Virus record (IMG/VR): IMGVR_UViG_3300000117_007448
Span: 39,199-103,198 of that record
Reading direction: 5' to 3' (one strand)
Length of the DNA: 64,000 nucleotides
Origin: a virus
Positions 7,786 to 28,578 of this stretch are shown here, piece by piece. The notes beneath the pieces are model-generated. The model was not told where the DNA came from, ran no database searches, and saw nothing but the letters and a program-made list of their open reading frames with translations. The number at the start of each line of letters is the position of its first letter. The first letter of the stretch is position 1. Both the position numbers and the translations under genes were made by a program.

Positions 7786-7814
7786 ATGATAACACGATTA
7801 TCGAATTATGTCAA
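7786..7814 (-). promoter_or_regulatory. Putative sigma70 promoter, possibly leaderless start
   Basis: On the minus strand TTGACA (7814-7809), a 17-bp spacer and TATCAT (7791-7786) give a good host-type promoter overlapping the stop of the DUF4338-like gene. The expected transcription start coincides with the ATG at 7779. A CATAAATA late-type motif overlaps the -10 element, so the site may serve more than one phase. Confidence 0.45.
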
Positions 7815-8916
7815 TCTCTTTATCACCTGTCCATACTTCTAAGTCTTTTCTGAGTCTTTTGTCGTTTTTAAGAGACATATATCTGCTTGAGGCCTTCTTG
7901 ACCCACCATTTAAATATATTCTCCAGATAGTGTTTATCGTGGTTATCCTTGTCTGGAATCAACTTATCTGTCTTACCAGTCACTACATCAACAAAGTTTG
8001 AGAAACCATAATTACAAGCGTAATATCGTTTCTTTTCAGTTAAATTAAGAGCTTTATTGATTGTTTTATTATATCTTTCCAAATCCTCACCATCTAAATT
8101 AGCCTTGATAAGAGCCTGTATTTTTGTAGATATTTTAAGTTTTCTTGATGAGGCATCTTCTGGTACTATCGGTTCACCAACAGCTTTTTCCATATAATCT
8201 CTTAAATCTTCATATGGTTTGCCGTGCATCAACGGTAAAAAATTAGAATCTGTAAGACCTTTAAATCGTAAAAATGGCTTCATGCCATCATACTGTGAAC
8301 TAGACTTTGATGAACCATACAAACTGGTCGTTTCAAATAAACAAGTATTCATACCTGGATATTTTGTATTCATTCTTTCACGAACAAAGTGTGAACAACA
8401 AATACCAGCCAATAATTTACCACCAAGGTAATTAAAACCAAATGGTTGTGATGGCACAATTGCAAAACCCATAATTGATGTTTTATTAAATGATACTGCT
8501 GTTTTAGCATCTTGTGTAAAAACACAATCTAATAGTTGATTTCTTGGTTTCATATTAATTACAGGAGAACCAATACGAATAAAACCAAGCCACTTTTTAC
8601 TATTCGTTTCTAATACACCTAATCGTAATGATTTTCCTGGAATACTTGTCATATTGGAATGAGATGAAATAATTTTAACATAAATGTCCCACATATTTTG
8701 GTTCATTTCATGTATTTCTATATTCATATCTTCTGGGTGCATATCAAAGTTATCAAATAAATCTATTTCAGGTCCCATTCCTGGTAATCCAAAGGACATT
8801 TTTTCAACTGTACTTACTTTTTGATCACGAATATAATCTGCAATACCATCAAATTTATCAAAGTAATCTGAGAATACTTTGGCACCGTGTATAGCTTGTT
8901 CTTTAGTTATTTTCAT
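7798..8916 (-). CDS. DUF4338/DruA-like protein, paralogue 1
   Basis: A protein of 372 aa related to the gene at 27295-28578. The shared core runs WLGFIRIGSP, a few tens of residues, then MGFAIVPSQPFGFNYLGGKL with LLAGICCS, later TTSLYG, SQYDGMKPF and GLT. The order of these blocks resembles DUF4338 (Druantia DruA) and, more loosely, the GNAT-like Mom family. This copy lacks the RDKFIGW block seen in its paralogue. It overlaps the gp41 helicase gene by 4 bp, so it is expressed with replication genes. No catalytic role is established; nucleic-acid or base modification is possible by analogy with Mom. The family call is from pattern memory only. Confidence 0.45.
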   Translation of the reverse strand: MKITKEQAIHGAKVFSDYFDKFDGIADYIRDQKVSTVEKMSFGLPGMGPEIDLFDNFDMHPEDMNIEIHEMNQNMWDIYVKIISSHSNMTSIPGKSLRLGVLETNSKKWLGFIRIGSPVINMKPRNQLLDCVFTQDAKTAVSFNKTSIMGFAIVPSQPFGFNYLGGKLLAGICCSHFVRERMNTKYPGMNTCLFETTSLYGSSKSSSQYDGMKPFLRFKGLTDSNFLPLMHGKPYEDLRDYMEKAVGEPIVPEDASSRKLKISTKIQALIKANLDGEDLERYNKTINKALNLTEKKRYYACNYGFSNFVDVVTGKTDKLIPDKDNHDKHYLENIFKWWVKKASSRYMSLKNDKRLRKDLEVWTGDKEIDIIR

Positions 8917-18075: not shown

Positions 18076-18570
18076 CTAAGCTGCTTTAGATTCTTGTAAA
18101 AGTTCAGGTTTAAGTAAATTGAGACTATTACTAATTTCAACTTTTCTTGGTTTTTTATGATCTGGTATAACATTCTCTAAACCAACTCTTAAAATACCAT
18201 CCTTAAACTCAGCACCTTTTACTTCTAGAGTATCAGCTACAGATAGGGTTTTTGTGAATGAGCGTGTACCTATACCTTTGTGTAAATATGAAACACTCTC
18301 AACTTCTTTTTCAATCTTTTCACCTCTAATAACTAAAGAGTTATCCTCTACTGTTATTTCAACTTCTTCTTTACTAAAGCCAGCAATAGCTAATTCAACA
18401 ATATAATTGTTTTCATTAACCATTAATATATTATGTGGCGGAAAAGTTGAAGATGTTTTATTATTTAAGATTCTTTCGACATCCTTAAATACTCTTTCAA
18501 AACCTAAAGTAGAGTGAGCTAATAGAGCTCTTTCTAGACCTTTAAAATGACCGGTTGTAATATCTACCAT
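18076..18570 (-). CDS. hsp20: Small heat-shock protein Hsp20
   Basis: A protein of 164 aa with an alpha-crystallin domain over about residues 40-145. The strands YIVELAIAGFSKEEVEITVE and DNSLVIRGEK, the KGIGTRSFTKTLSVAD segment and the closing DGILRVGLENVIP are typical of IbpA-like proteins. It is an ATP-independent holdase. Phage copies are common in T4-like marine phages and may help virion or scaffold folding. AAGGAGA precedes the ATG. It forms its own unit, with an ACTAAATA late-type motif upstream (18631-18638) and a strong terminator downstream. Confidence 0.93.
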   Translation of the reverse strand: MVDITTGHFKGLERALLAHSTLGFERVFKDVERILNNKTSSTFPPHNILMVNENNYIVELAIAGFSKEEVEITVEDNSLVIRGEKIEKEVESVSYLHKGIGTRSFTKTLSVADTLEVKGAEFKDGILRVGLENVIPDHKKPRKVEISNSLNLLKPELLQESKAA

Positions 18571-18630
18571 TTTTAATTCTCCTTAAAATAAGCAAGTTAA
18601 ACAATTGTGACCCTTTTTAGGCATCACTAA

Positions 18631-27172: not shown

Positions 27173-27204
27173 GCATTAATTTTGTTGTTAAAATACAACA
27201 AAGG

Positions 27205-27269
27205 TGGAGCGGTGTTGTGGAGTTGCACCACACTAATTACTGGGAGTAACTTGTCCTACGACCCACCGC
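27205..27269 (-). tRNA. tRNA-Gly(CCC)-like element with reduced D-arm
   Basis: On the minus strand this 65-nt element folds as a cloverleaf. The acceptor stem is GCGGTG at 27269-27264 against CACCGC at 27214-27209, with one mismatch in the seventh pair. The D-arm is only GTC-GTAG-GAC. The anticodon arm is AGTTA-CTCCCAG-TAATT, with U33, anticodon CCC and A37. The T-arm is TGTGG-TGCAACT-CCACA, a 5-bp stem and 7-nt loop keeping U54, C56, A57 and A58. Discriminator U73 and an encoded CCA follow. G1-C72, C2-G71, G3-C70, U73 and C35/C36 are the bacterial tRNA-Gly identity set. The D-arm (11 nt including linkers) and 2-nt variable loop are much too short for a canonical tRNA, so it may be a degenerate copy or a true minimal tRNA. 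Confidence 0.5.
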
Positions 27270-27275
27270 AAATTA

Positions 27276-27305
27276 TGTATATACTATAACATAACTATCT
27301 GCCAA
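27276..27305 (-). promoter_or_regulatory. Possible promoter for the tRNA-like element
   Basis: TTGGCA (27305-27300), an 18-bp spacer and TATACA (27281-27276) on the minus strand. The start expected 7 nt downstream is the first base of the tRNA-like element. It overlaps the stop codon of the DUF4338-like gene and an inverted repeat TTATGT/ACATAA (27273-27294). Confidence 0.35.
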
Positions 27306-28578
27306 TTTGGGGCAAATATGAATCTTTTGTTTCATTCCATGATTTATATATTAAATCGTCATAAAATAAACTTTCTTTCGATTCTCTACCTTTTTTGACC
27401 AATTGTTTAATTCTAGGTTTTGCATACTTGTATTTCCAAAGCTCTGATAGTGACTCTGTGGAATTATCAAATGCCTTTGTCAAATCATTTATTTCAGCTT
27501 CACCTCTCAAGTATGCACAGCTTTTATCATATAAGGGGCAAAAGTAAACACCTCTTGCGTGATCAGATTTCATTATTTCTTTTGGTATATTACCTAATTT
27601 ACTATATGTGAAAGCATACGATCTATGCCTATGATCTCTTTTTAATTGTTGACCATTTGGTCTTTTGGCAACATACCATTCAAAATATTTTCGTGGGTGG
27701 TTTTTCATCAACCAATGTCTAATTTGATATATTGTTTTCTTTGTTGGTTCATATGAAACAGAACCACTTGTAAAGCCCATTGGCTTCCAATATTTTAAAT
27801 TATCATATTGTGATAGACCACCTTTTTTTGTTTTACCATAAAGTGATGTTGTTGTTACACTTACTAAATCATCACCATAATTTTTCTTCCATTGTGATTG
27901 TACCTGTTCTGATAAACAAAGTAAAGCTAATAGTTTACCACCAACATAATTAAAACCAAGAGGTTGTAATGGTACAATCGTAGAACCTATTGCTGTATGA
28001 TTTAACATACCACTTTCTGTTTTGTAATTACGATCCCAACCAATAAATTTATCTCTTGGTGTTAAGTCAATAAAATCACCTGTAATGCAAATAACACCAA
28101 GATATTTTTTAGTTTTTTTATCACGAATAATATAAGCTAAATTACGGCCTATATTGGAGTTGTTTCTCATTGTAGATGTAAAAGTTCTAATAGCATTCCA
28201 TATTTCTGGCATACCATCTTTACCACCTGTATAAATCATTTCAGGTTCTAACTCTAGGTAATCTTCATTTGTTTTTGGTTGCCAAATATTATTTTTAACC
28301 TCTGCTAAAGCTTTTCTTTGTTTCTCATCTTTTAATACTTGTCGTTCACCCTCCCACAAATCGTTTACTGTGATTGTTGGGTATCTTTGTTTTACTTCAC
28401 AAAACTTTTGATATAGTGTATATTCTCTTACGTCCATTTGAGAAACATAAGATAAATCTGTTACAATGTTTTCTTTCAAATCTGAATCTGATATATCATC
28501 AAATACTATTTCAGACTCACTCCACTTTTTCCATTGTGTTTCTACATCATCTTTTACATCATATTTGTATGTACTCAT
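27295..28578 (-). CDS. DUF4338/DruA-like protein, paralogue 2
   Basis: A protein of 427 aa. KYLGVICITGDFIDLTPRDK leads into FIGWDRNYK (about 165-180), then STIVPLQPLGFNYVGGKLLA (about 195-214), a YGDDLVSVTTTSLYG block (about 235) and a YDNLKYWKPMGFTSG block (about 257). The order RD-x-x-IGW, small/aromatic strand, KLLA helix, T-rich strand, Y-x-x-x-x-W-x-x-x-G-x-T is that of DUF4338 (DruA of Druantia), with a looser likeness to Mom. It is a longer relative of the gene at 7798-8916. It overlaps the upstream gene by 4 bp and precedes the tRNA-like element. Function unproven. Confidence 0.5.
   Translation of the reverse strand: MSTYKYDVKDDVETQWKKWSESEIVFDDISDSDLKENIVTDLSYVSQMDVREYTLYQKFCEVKQRYPTITVNDLWEGERQVLKDEKQRKALAEVKNNIWQPKTNEDYLELEPEMIYTGGKDGMPEIWNAIRTFTSTMRNNSNIGRNLAYIIRDKKTKKYLGVICITGDFIDLTPRDKFIGWDRNYKTESGMLNHTAIGSTIVPLQPLGFNYVGGKLLALLCLSEQVQSQWKKNYGDDLVSVTTTSLYGKTKKGGLSQYDNLKYWKPMGFTSGSVSYEPTKKTIYQIRHWLMKNHPRKYFEWYVAKRPNGQQLKRDHRHRSYAFTYSKLGNIPKEIMKSDHARGVYFCPLYDKSCAYLRGEAEINDLTKAFDNSTESLSELWKYKYAKPRIKQLVKKGRESKESLFYDDLIYKSWNETKDSYLPQIGR

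Follow-up and report, generated by a model that had tools for sequence, protein, structure and literature searches.

Can a cloverleaf that resembles a glycine tRNA and keeps only a residue of the D-arm be a functional RNA and, if so, for which reaction would it be used? The question is raised by a 65-nt element encoded at positions 27205–27269 on the minus strand of the window, i.e. the whole 64,000-nucleotide stretch of viral DNA analysed here, taken from a 103-kb virus record.

Anatomy and detection of the element

Read from 27269 to 27205, the minus-strand sequence is GCGGUGG GUCGUAGGACA AGUUACUCCCAGUAAUU AG UGUGGUGCAACUCCACA ACACCGC U CCA. The two acceptor strands, GCGGTGG (27263–27269, minus strand, as for all parts of the element) and ACACCGC (27209–27215), form six pairs and a G.A mismatch at 7-66. 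They enclose a minimal D-region of 11 nt with a 3-bp stem (GUC-GUAG-GAC-A, 27252–27262), an anticodon-like arm (27235–27251), a variable loop of 2 nt (AG) and a T-arm of 5 bp and 7 nt (UGUGG-UGCAACU-CCACA, 27216–27232), and they are followed by a discriminator U73 and an encoded CCA (27205–27208). In the window copy, the anticodon arm AGUUA-CUCCCAG-UAAUU can form five pairs, one of them G.U, and a 7-nt loop containing U33, the anticodon-like CCC (27242–27244) and A37; the predicted energy minimum of this arm is a 7-bp stem with a 3-nt loop instead. Having neither a full D-arm (G18G19) nor a variable loop of at least 4 nt, the window copy falls outside the canonical tRNAs. The original prediction had described this tRNA-Gly-like cloverleaf with its 11-nt D-region; both its sequence and its coordinates are exact, and its account of the acceptor, D-region, anticodon arm, variable loop and T-arm proved accurate when the sequence was read again.

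It had also warned that gene finders may miss the element, which holds for the copies of the family that were tested. ARAGORN called no tRNA over the window, the tRNA family of Rfam (RF00005) was not reported on the window element at the gathering score, and Rfam was also silent on the elements of loci L401, L404, L221 and L408. At a relaxed threshold, the sole Rfam match on the element was the Tymovirus tRNA-like structure (RF00233, 13.4 bits, E 2.4), a candidate that was rejected with a score below the gathering cut-off of 40.

Other features were noticed in the same virus record. Rfam matched a ROSE_3 RNA thermometer in the window (18565–18630, minus strand, 45.6 bits for a cut-off of 43) that ends where an Hsp20-like gene begins (18076–18570), putting a heat-sensing element ahead of a phage small heat-shock gene. 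At locus L004 (G000:C1:9072-9185, minus strand, 30.5 bits), the tRNA model matched 114 bases that were not called by ARAGORN, possibly a tRNA interrupted by an insertion or intron.

The cloverleaf fold itself is modest, with a minimum free energy of -22.0, a z-score of -2.1 and 11 of 200 shuffled sequences folding as well, and in a context of 146 nt the energy minimum favours a different pairing. A scan for tRNA shapes gave one hit in the window, whereas 60 resampled windows averaged 0.03, under criteria that were set after the element had been seen. Since folding energy alone is weak evidence, the relatives are the test.

Conservation and covariation among relatives

Relatives were collected through searches with the neighbouring genes and then by a gene-blind DNA pattern search, and the element was found in more than 100 phage contigs. 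The carriers form a family of T4-like phages. The 16 kb around the window element gave no sequence similarity match to annotated phages; among cultured phages, the nearest relatives found are Mosig and HTVC008M, which infect Pelagibacter, the T4-like cyanophages being more distant. The RNAs of the family are 63–70 nt long, with short D-regions and gaps between stems (variable loop) of mostly 1–3 nt. The R1 covariance model, whose training includes the window sequence, gives the window element 75.7 bits as its sole match in the window.

In an alignment of 39 diverged copies, the window sequence among them, 155 cells with compensatory double changes were counted versus 54 ± 7 in shuffles. The covariation score was 0.484, versus 0.142 in shuffles and at most 0.145 when the structures were slid by 1–3 columns. 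Overall, 88% of the cells are paired and covariation is observed in all four helices, apart from four acceptor pairs that never vary (G1-C72, C2-G71, G3-C70 and G4-C69). The D-stem is paired in 97.4% of the cells and its third pair varies between C-G, U-A and A-U, the anticodon-like arm shows double changes at all six modelled pairs together with a variable loop size, and the T-arm, paired in 97.9% of the cells, shows them at four of its five pairs.

Conservation and covariation in the relatives are decisive, and it is practically certain that the element is a real and strongly selected RNA. A chance cloverleaf or a decaying tRNA gene would have agreed with the non-canonical shape and the modest z-score, but it is ruled out by covariation and by positions that are invariant across more than 100 contigs, so that its probability is negligible. 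The compensatory pairing in relatives that the original prediction had proposed to look for is thus present, on a massive scale, in the 39 diverged copies; the "decaying" tRNA that it had also envisaged is rejected because the helices are maintained by compensatory change and the identity positions do not vary.

Glycine identity and decoding features

The identity set recognised by bacterial glycyl-tRNA synthetase (GlyRS) in tRNA-Gly comprises U73, G1-C72, C2-G71 and G3-C70 (PMC9976931), and C35 and C36 are determinants according to the structure of the E. coli enzyme (PMC9908026). These three acceptor pairs, U73 and the encoded CCA occur in all 69 unique elements, among which only U73 is an unforced observation, the extraction filter having required GCGG..CCGC ends and CCA. 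In the gene-anchored loci described below, the GCGG..CCGC/CCA ends were seen before any filter was applied. In 67 of the 69 elements, the anticodon-like hairpin carries CC within or at its apical loop, with loop sizes that vary and leave the exact C35/C36 positions unassignable in most. The bacterial glycine identity elements and the reduced D-arm, first described for the window copy, are supported and true of the whole family.

The intact identity elements, the standard 7-nt loop with U33, CCC and A37 that the window copy can form, and the location of the element inside a tRNA cluster in one clade would all suit an ordinary decoding tRNA-Gly, with a D-arm unusually reduced as in animal mitochondria, that supplements glycine decoding by the host. 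However, a 5-bp stem with a 7-nt anticodon loop is impossible in 44 of the 69 unique relatives and only 20 of the 69 combine this arm with U33 and C35C36, the longest stem closing loops of mostly 4–5 nt. GGG, which a CCC anticodon would read, accounts for 37 of 17,937 phage codons (0.21%) and for only 2.9% of the glycine codons. Phages of the tRNA-cluster clade have genes for canonical tRNA-Gly(GCC) and/or tRNA-Gly(UCC) beside the element, which is kept even where both are present, and a role in decoding would leave its adjacency to one gene (see below) unexplained. Because most relatives lack the 7-nt loop and several phages encode canonical glycine tRNAs, the "reduced tRNA" of the original prediction is unlikely in the decoding sense. 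We give an ordinary decoding tRNA little credence and consider it very probable that the RNA is not primarily decoding; as read from the aligned sequences, selection appears to have kept the charging determinants and relaxed decoding.

Linkage to a DruA gene

Directly upstream of the element, at 27295–28578 on the minus strand, lies a gene for a protein of 427 aa, here called type 1, which is a member of the Pfam DruA family (PF14236, E 9.1e-17, 61.6 bits, cut-off 27) and is also matched by the DruA model of PADLOC (E 1e-20). This DUF4338 neighbour had been named in the original prediction, which did not connect it with the RNA. As a single query against the genome contigs the type-1 protein gave no match, whereas an alignment query did. 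Gene-anchored loci were those in which the gene end was complete and followed by 200 nt or more, some contigs being counted twice as they were fetched by two gene searches; the element is located downstream of the type-1 gene in 59 out of 59, of which 53 pass the strict element filter and six, with a T-stem mismatch, were judged by eye. The gene-blind search recovered 117 elements in 105 loci, and for 96 of the 117 a type-1 gene lies on the same strand no more than 600 nt upstream, the remaining ones being mostly near contig ends or in the tRNA-cluster clade. Among the five contigs of this clade that are long enough, the type-1 gene lies elsewhere in L149, L189, L200 and L204, and L177 (24.7 kb) carries elements with only a type-2 gene found. 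The reduced element occurs in 10 of 17 long type-1 contigs (12 picked by the type-1 gene and five fetched via the type-2 gene), in most of them 8–13 kb downstream of the gene; in the remaining seven, some of which may be fragments or incomplete, tRNA-Gly was matched only at canonical size, weakly or not at all.

A second DruA paralogue, type 2 (PHROG 19197; 7801–8916, minus strand), served as a control. It is 25% identical, adjoins clamp-loader genes and is found in the same phages, and the element is present in none of 80 type-2 loci. The type-2 protein was accordingly rejected as partner of the RNA, and mere proximity to some DruA-like gene does not account for the linkage in this phage group. 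From phage to phage, the element accompanies the type-1 gene, which suggests a gene–RNA pair, and we hold with high confidence that the RNA is a functional partner of type-1 DruA.

The arrangement of the loci shows some variation. In L018, L019, L021, L046 and L109, the DruA gene and an intact element are separated by an insert of about 550 nt that looks coding and, by eye, resembles a homing endonuclease. Tandem pairs of elements occur in L028, L030, L031, L032, L039, L125, L171 and L267, the second copy being often of the GCGGGA type with a GUCCA loop, closer to a normal tRNA-Gly.

Other forms of tRNA-Gly were encountered near related genes. In L233, a distant type-2 gene is followed at 50 nt by a deviant tRNA-Gly of its own, for which a promoter and a terminator were recognised by eye; this tRNA-Gly is ARAGORN-negative but reported by the Rfam tRNA model. 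In L235, a canonical tRNA-Gly(UCC) lies just upstream of the gene, and in L236 a weak match (E 0.0085) lies about 550 nt downstream. These three loci hint at a recurrence of the DruA/tRNA-Gly pairing. In the cultured phages Mosig and HTVC008M, no element is adjacent to the gene and tRNA-Gly(ACC) forms are located elsewhere, as a full-length tRNA near the CobS gene in HTVC008M and as a 74-nt, ARAGORN-negative match of canonical size (E 2.7e-5) in Mosig; ACC is absent from the three glycine anticodons listed in PMC9908026. The gap before the peptidase gene in these two phages contains a different shared hairpin, GUGCGA..UGACGCA (L098 4700–4835, L099 4117–4253).

Transcription signals and the downstream gene

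Just past the CCA, an A+T-rich hairpin UUUGUUGU-AUUUUA-ACAACAAA is found by sequence and fold (27181–27202, minus strand), and a similar hairpin, UUGUUG..CAACAA, recurs in close relatives. The 3' limit of the RNA gene is marked by the sigma-70-like promoter of the cobT-like/peptidase gene (TTGACA-17-TAGGAT, 27172–27144, minus strand), confirming the predicted location of the element between the DUF4338 gene and this promoter. Another promoter, with its +1 at the first base of the element, had been claimed; the scan found no sigma-70 consensus match directly upstream of the element in the window, so this promoter is unsupported and the element may be transcribed from the DruA gene. In the relatives, the flanking sequences suggest a small RNA gene: promoters resembling TTGACA/TATAAT were seen by eye shortly before the element in L025, L028, L233, L404 and L407, and the element is followed by an intrinsic terminator called by the scan in L074 and by terminators recognised by eye in L050 and in L035, the latter not called by the scan.

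A structure acting in cis, which would control the downstream cobT-like gene or end the DruA transcript, would agree with the position of the element in the DruA–cobT gap in the clade of the window, and with the complementarity in the window between the loop CUCCC and a GGGAG before the cobT-like start. The cobT-like gene has, however, its own promoter past the element, the element persists in tRNA clusters with other downstream neighbours, and the complementarity between loop and ribosome site is missing, by inspection only, in relatives such as L013. The CCA and the GlyRS identity set would moreover be unnecessary for a cis element, and we regard such a function as very improbable.

The type-1 protein and the possible use of the RNA

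An AlphaFold2 model of the type-1 protein, built from a 27-sequence alignment, reached a pLDDT of 86; a single-sequence model (pLDDT 33) was discarded. The best PDB fold matches of the model are mostly GNATs, TacT included, with a best E of 0.012 and none at E <= 0.001. An earlier study describes DUF4338 as a GNAT domain (PMC10853773), and the GNAT fold is supported but not proven because the PDB matches are below significance. The fold search also revealed similar giant-virus proteins (Faunusvirus, E 3e-18, Yasminevirus and Dasosvirus).

The linkage between RNA and gene suggests a dedicated glycine carrier for chemistry outside protein synthesis. By analogy with tRNAs known to be diverted from translation, we lean towards a dedicated non-ribosomal tRNA-Gly, charged by the host GlyRS, that would be a glycyl substrate or donor for type-1 DruA. 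The RNA would be transcribed as a small RNA, the host enzyme would charge it with glycine through the intact identity elements, and the adjacent GNAT-like type-1 DruA would use the charged RNA, likeliest as glycyl donor to a macromolecule. Phage DNA would be the leading guess for the acceptor, on the grounds that a related cyanophage protein is located among replication genes, that use of a glycyl donor has been suggested for Mom, which is also a GNAT (PMC7824862), and that in cyanophages glycine is attached to DNA through a different pathway (PMC12783734). The lack of sequence relation between Mom and DruA counts against this guess, and DNA as the acceptor is a tentative proposal. We consider equally tentative a tRNA-dependent modification of DNA (or RNA), in which glycine from the minimal, GlyRS-charged phage tRNA would be transferred to nucleobases by a DruA-family transferase. 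Counting against the glycyl-donor model are the weak GNAT similarity, the seven of 17 long contigs without a reduced element, the exception of L177, and Mosig and HTVC008M.

Alternatively, the RNA could be a decoy or guard, i.e. a tRNA-Gly mimic that serves as target or inhibitor of a tRNA-Gly-directed activity and thereby titrates or controls it. A regulatory tRNA mimic had been among the readings of the original prediction, and the data are compatible with it. Phage genes are often accompanied by a partner that limits them, which counts for such a decoy, as does the linkage to a GNAT-like gene. TacT, itself a GNAT, reads U73 and G71 of Gly-tRNA (PMC9976931), and the element keeps both. However, the C35/C36-type loop is also kept, which is needed by GlyRS and not reported to be needed by TacT; in one clade, the gene and the RNA lie 8–13 kb apart, outside one operon; and phage DruA is not known to have a toxin phenotype. 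A decoy function thus seems rather unlikely to us, and we judge likewise its possible targets, which would be the DruA of the phage itself, if this were a TacT-like enzyme acetylating tRNA-Gly, or a tRNase or toxin of host defence.

Comparison with known systems

The glycyl-donor model can be set beside several known systems. The non-proteinogenic tRNA-Gly of Staphylococcus is full-length and chromosomal, whereas the phage RNA is of 63–70 nt, with a residual D-arm, short anticodon loops and a linkage to DruA. S. aureus has dedicated tRNA-Gly species that evade EF-Tu and serve peptidoglycan synthesis, the non-proteinogenic tRNAs of Staphylococcus being the donors for its bridges, and a similar diversion from translation to a non-ribosomal transferase (PMC9976931) would fit the structure and the linkage observed here. 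As with the TacT GNAT toxins, a putatively GNAT-like protein would be associated with a glycyl-tRNA, the U73 and G71 that TacT reads being invariant in the phage RNA; in contrast, TacT acetylates the host Gly-tRNA without a dedicated tRNA, and the likeness of DruA to it consists of weak fold matches only. The partner gene is, by the Pfam (PF14236, DUF4338) and PADLOC models, a member of the DruA family of Druantia, and DruA-like proteins are known in cyanophages (PMC12774648); it differs in being a phage gene, and no tRNA partner for DruA was found in the literature searched.

For DNA as the acceptor, the closest comparisons are Mom and CmoX/CmoY. The adenine-modifying Mom protein of phage Mu is a GNAT reviewed as a possible user of a glycyl donor for DNA (PMC7824862), but it has no known tRNA and no sequence relation to the partner protein. 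One cyanophage homologue bears the label "methylcarbamoylase mom"; membership of the type-1 protein in the Mom family (PF25680) was rejected, with an hhalign probability of 0.1% and no Pfam Mom match. CmoX/CmoY of cyanophage S-B43 carry out a glycine hypermodification of cytosine, so that cyanophages do put glycine on DNA (PMC12783734), from free glycine and ATP and not from a tRNA. The D-armless mitochondrial tRNAs are likewise short and without a normal D-arm (PMC7609411), but they decode on mitochondrial ribosomes, whereas the phage RNA mostly lacks a usable anticodon loop. Our literature search, with preprints and most subscription journals outside its scope, found no prior description of the RNA nor of a tRNA-dependent DNA modification.

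The known category to which the RNA would belong is that of dedicated non-proteinogenic tRNAs, and a categorically new system is possible if the DNA-modification reading is true. DruA proteins, those of Druantia included, would then gain an aminoacyl-tRNA-dependent chemistry. The finding adds a widespread phage RNA family unseen by ARAGORN and by the Rfam tRNA model in the copies tested, and supplies a natural tRNA in which the charging determinants appear to be kept and the decoding features relaxed. It also offers a testable lead to the biochemistry of DruA/DUF4338, a part of Druantia defence, with glycyl-tRNA as a candidate substrate.
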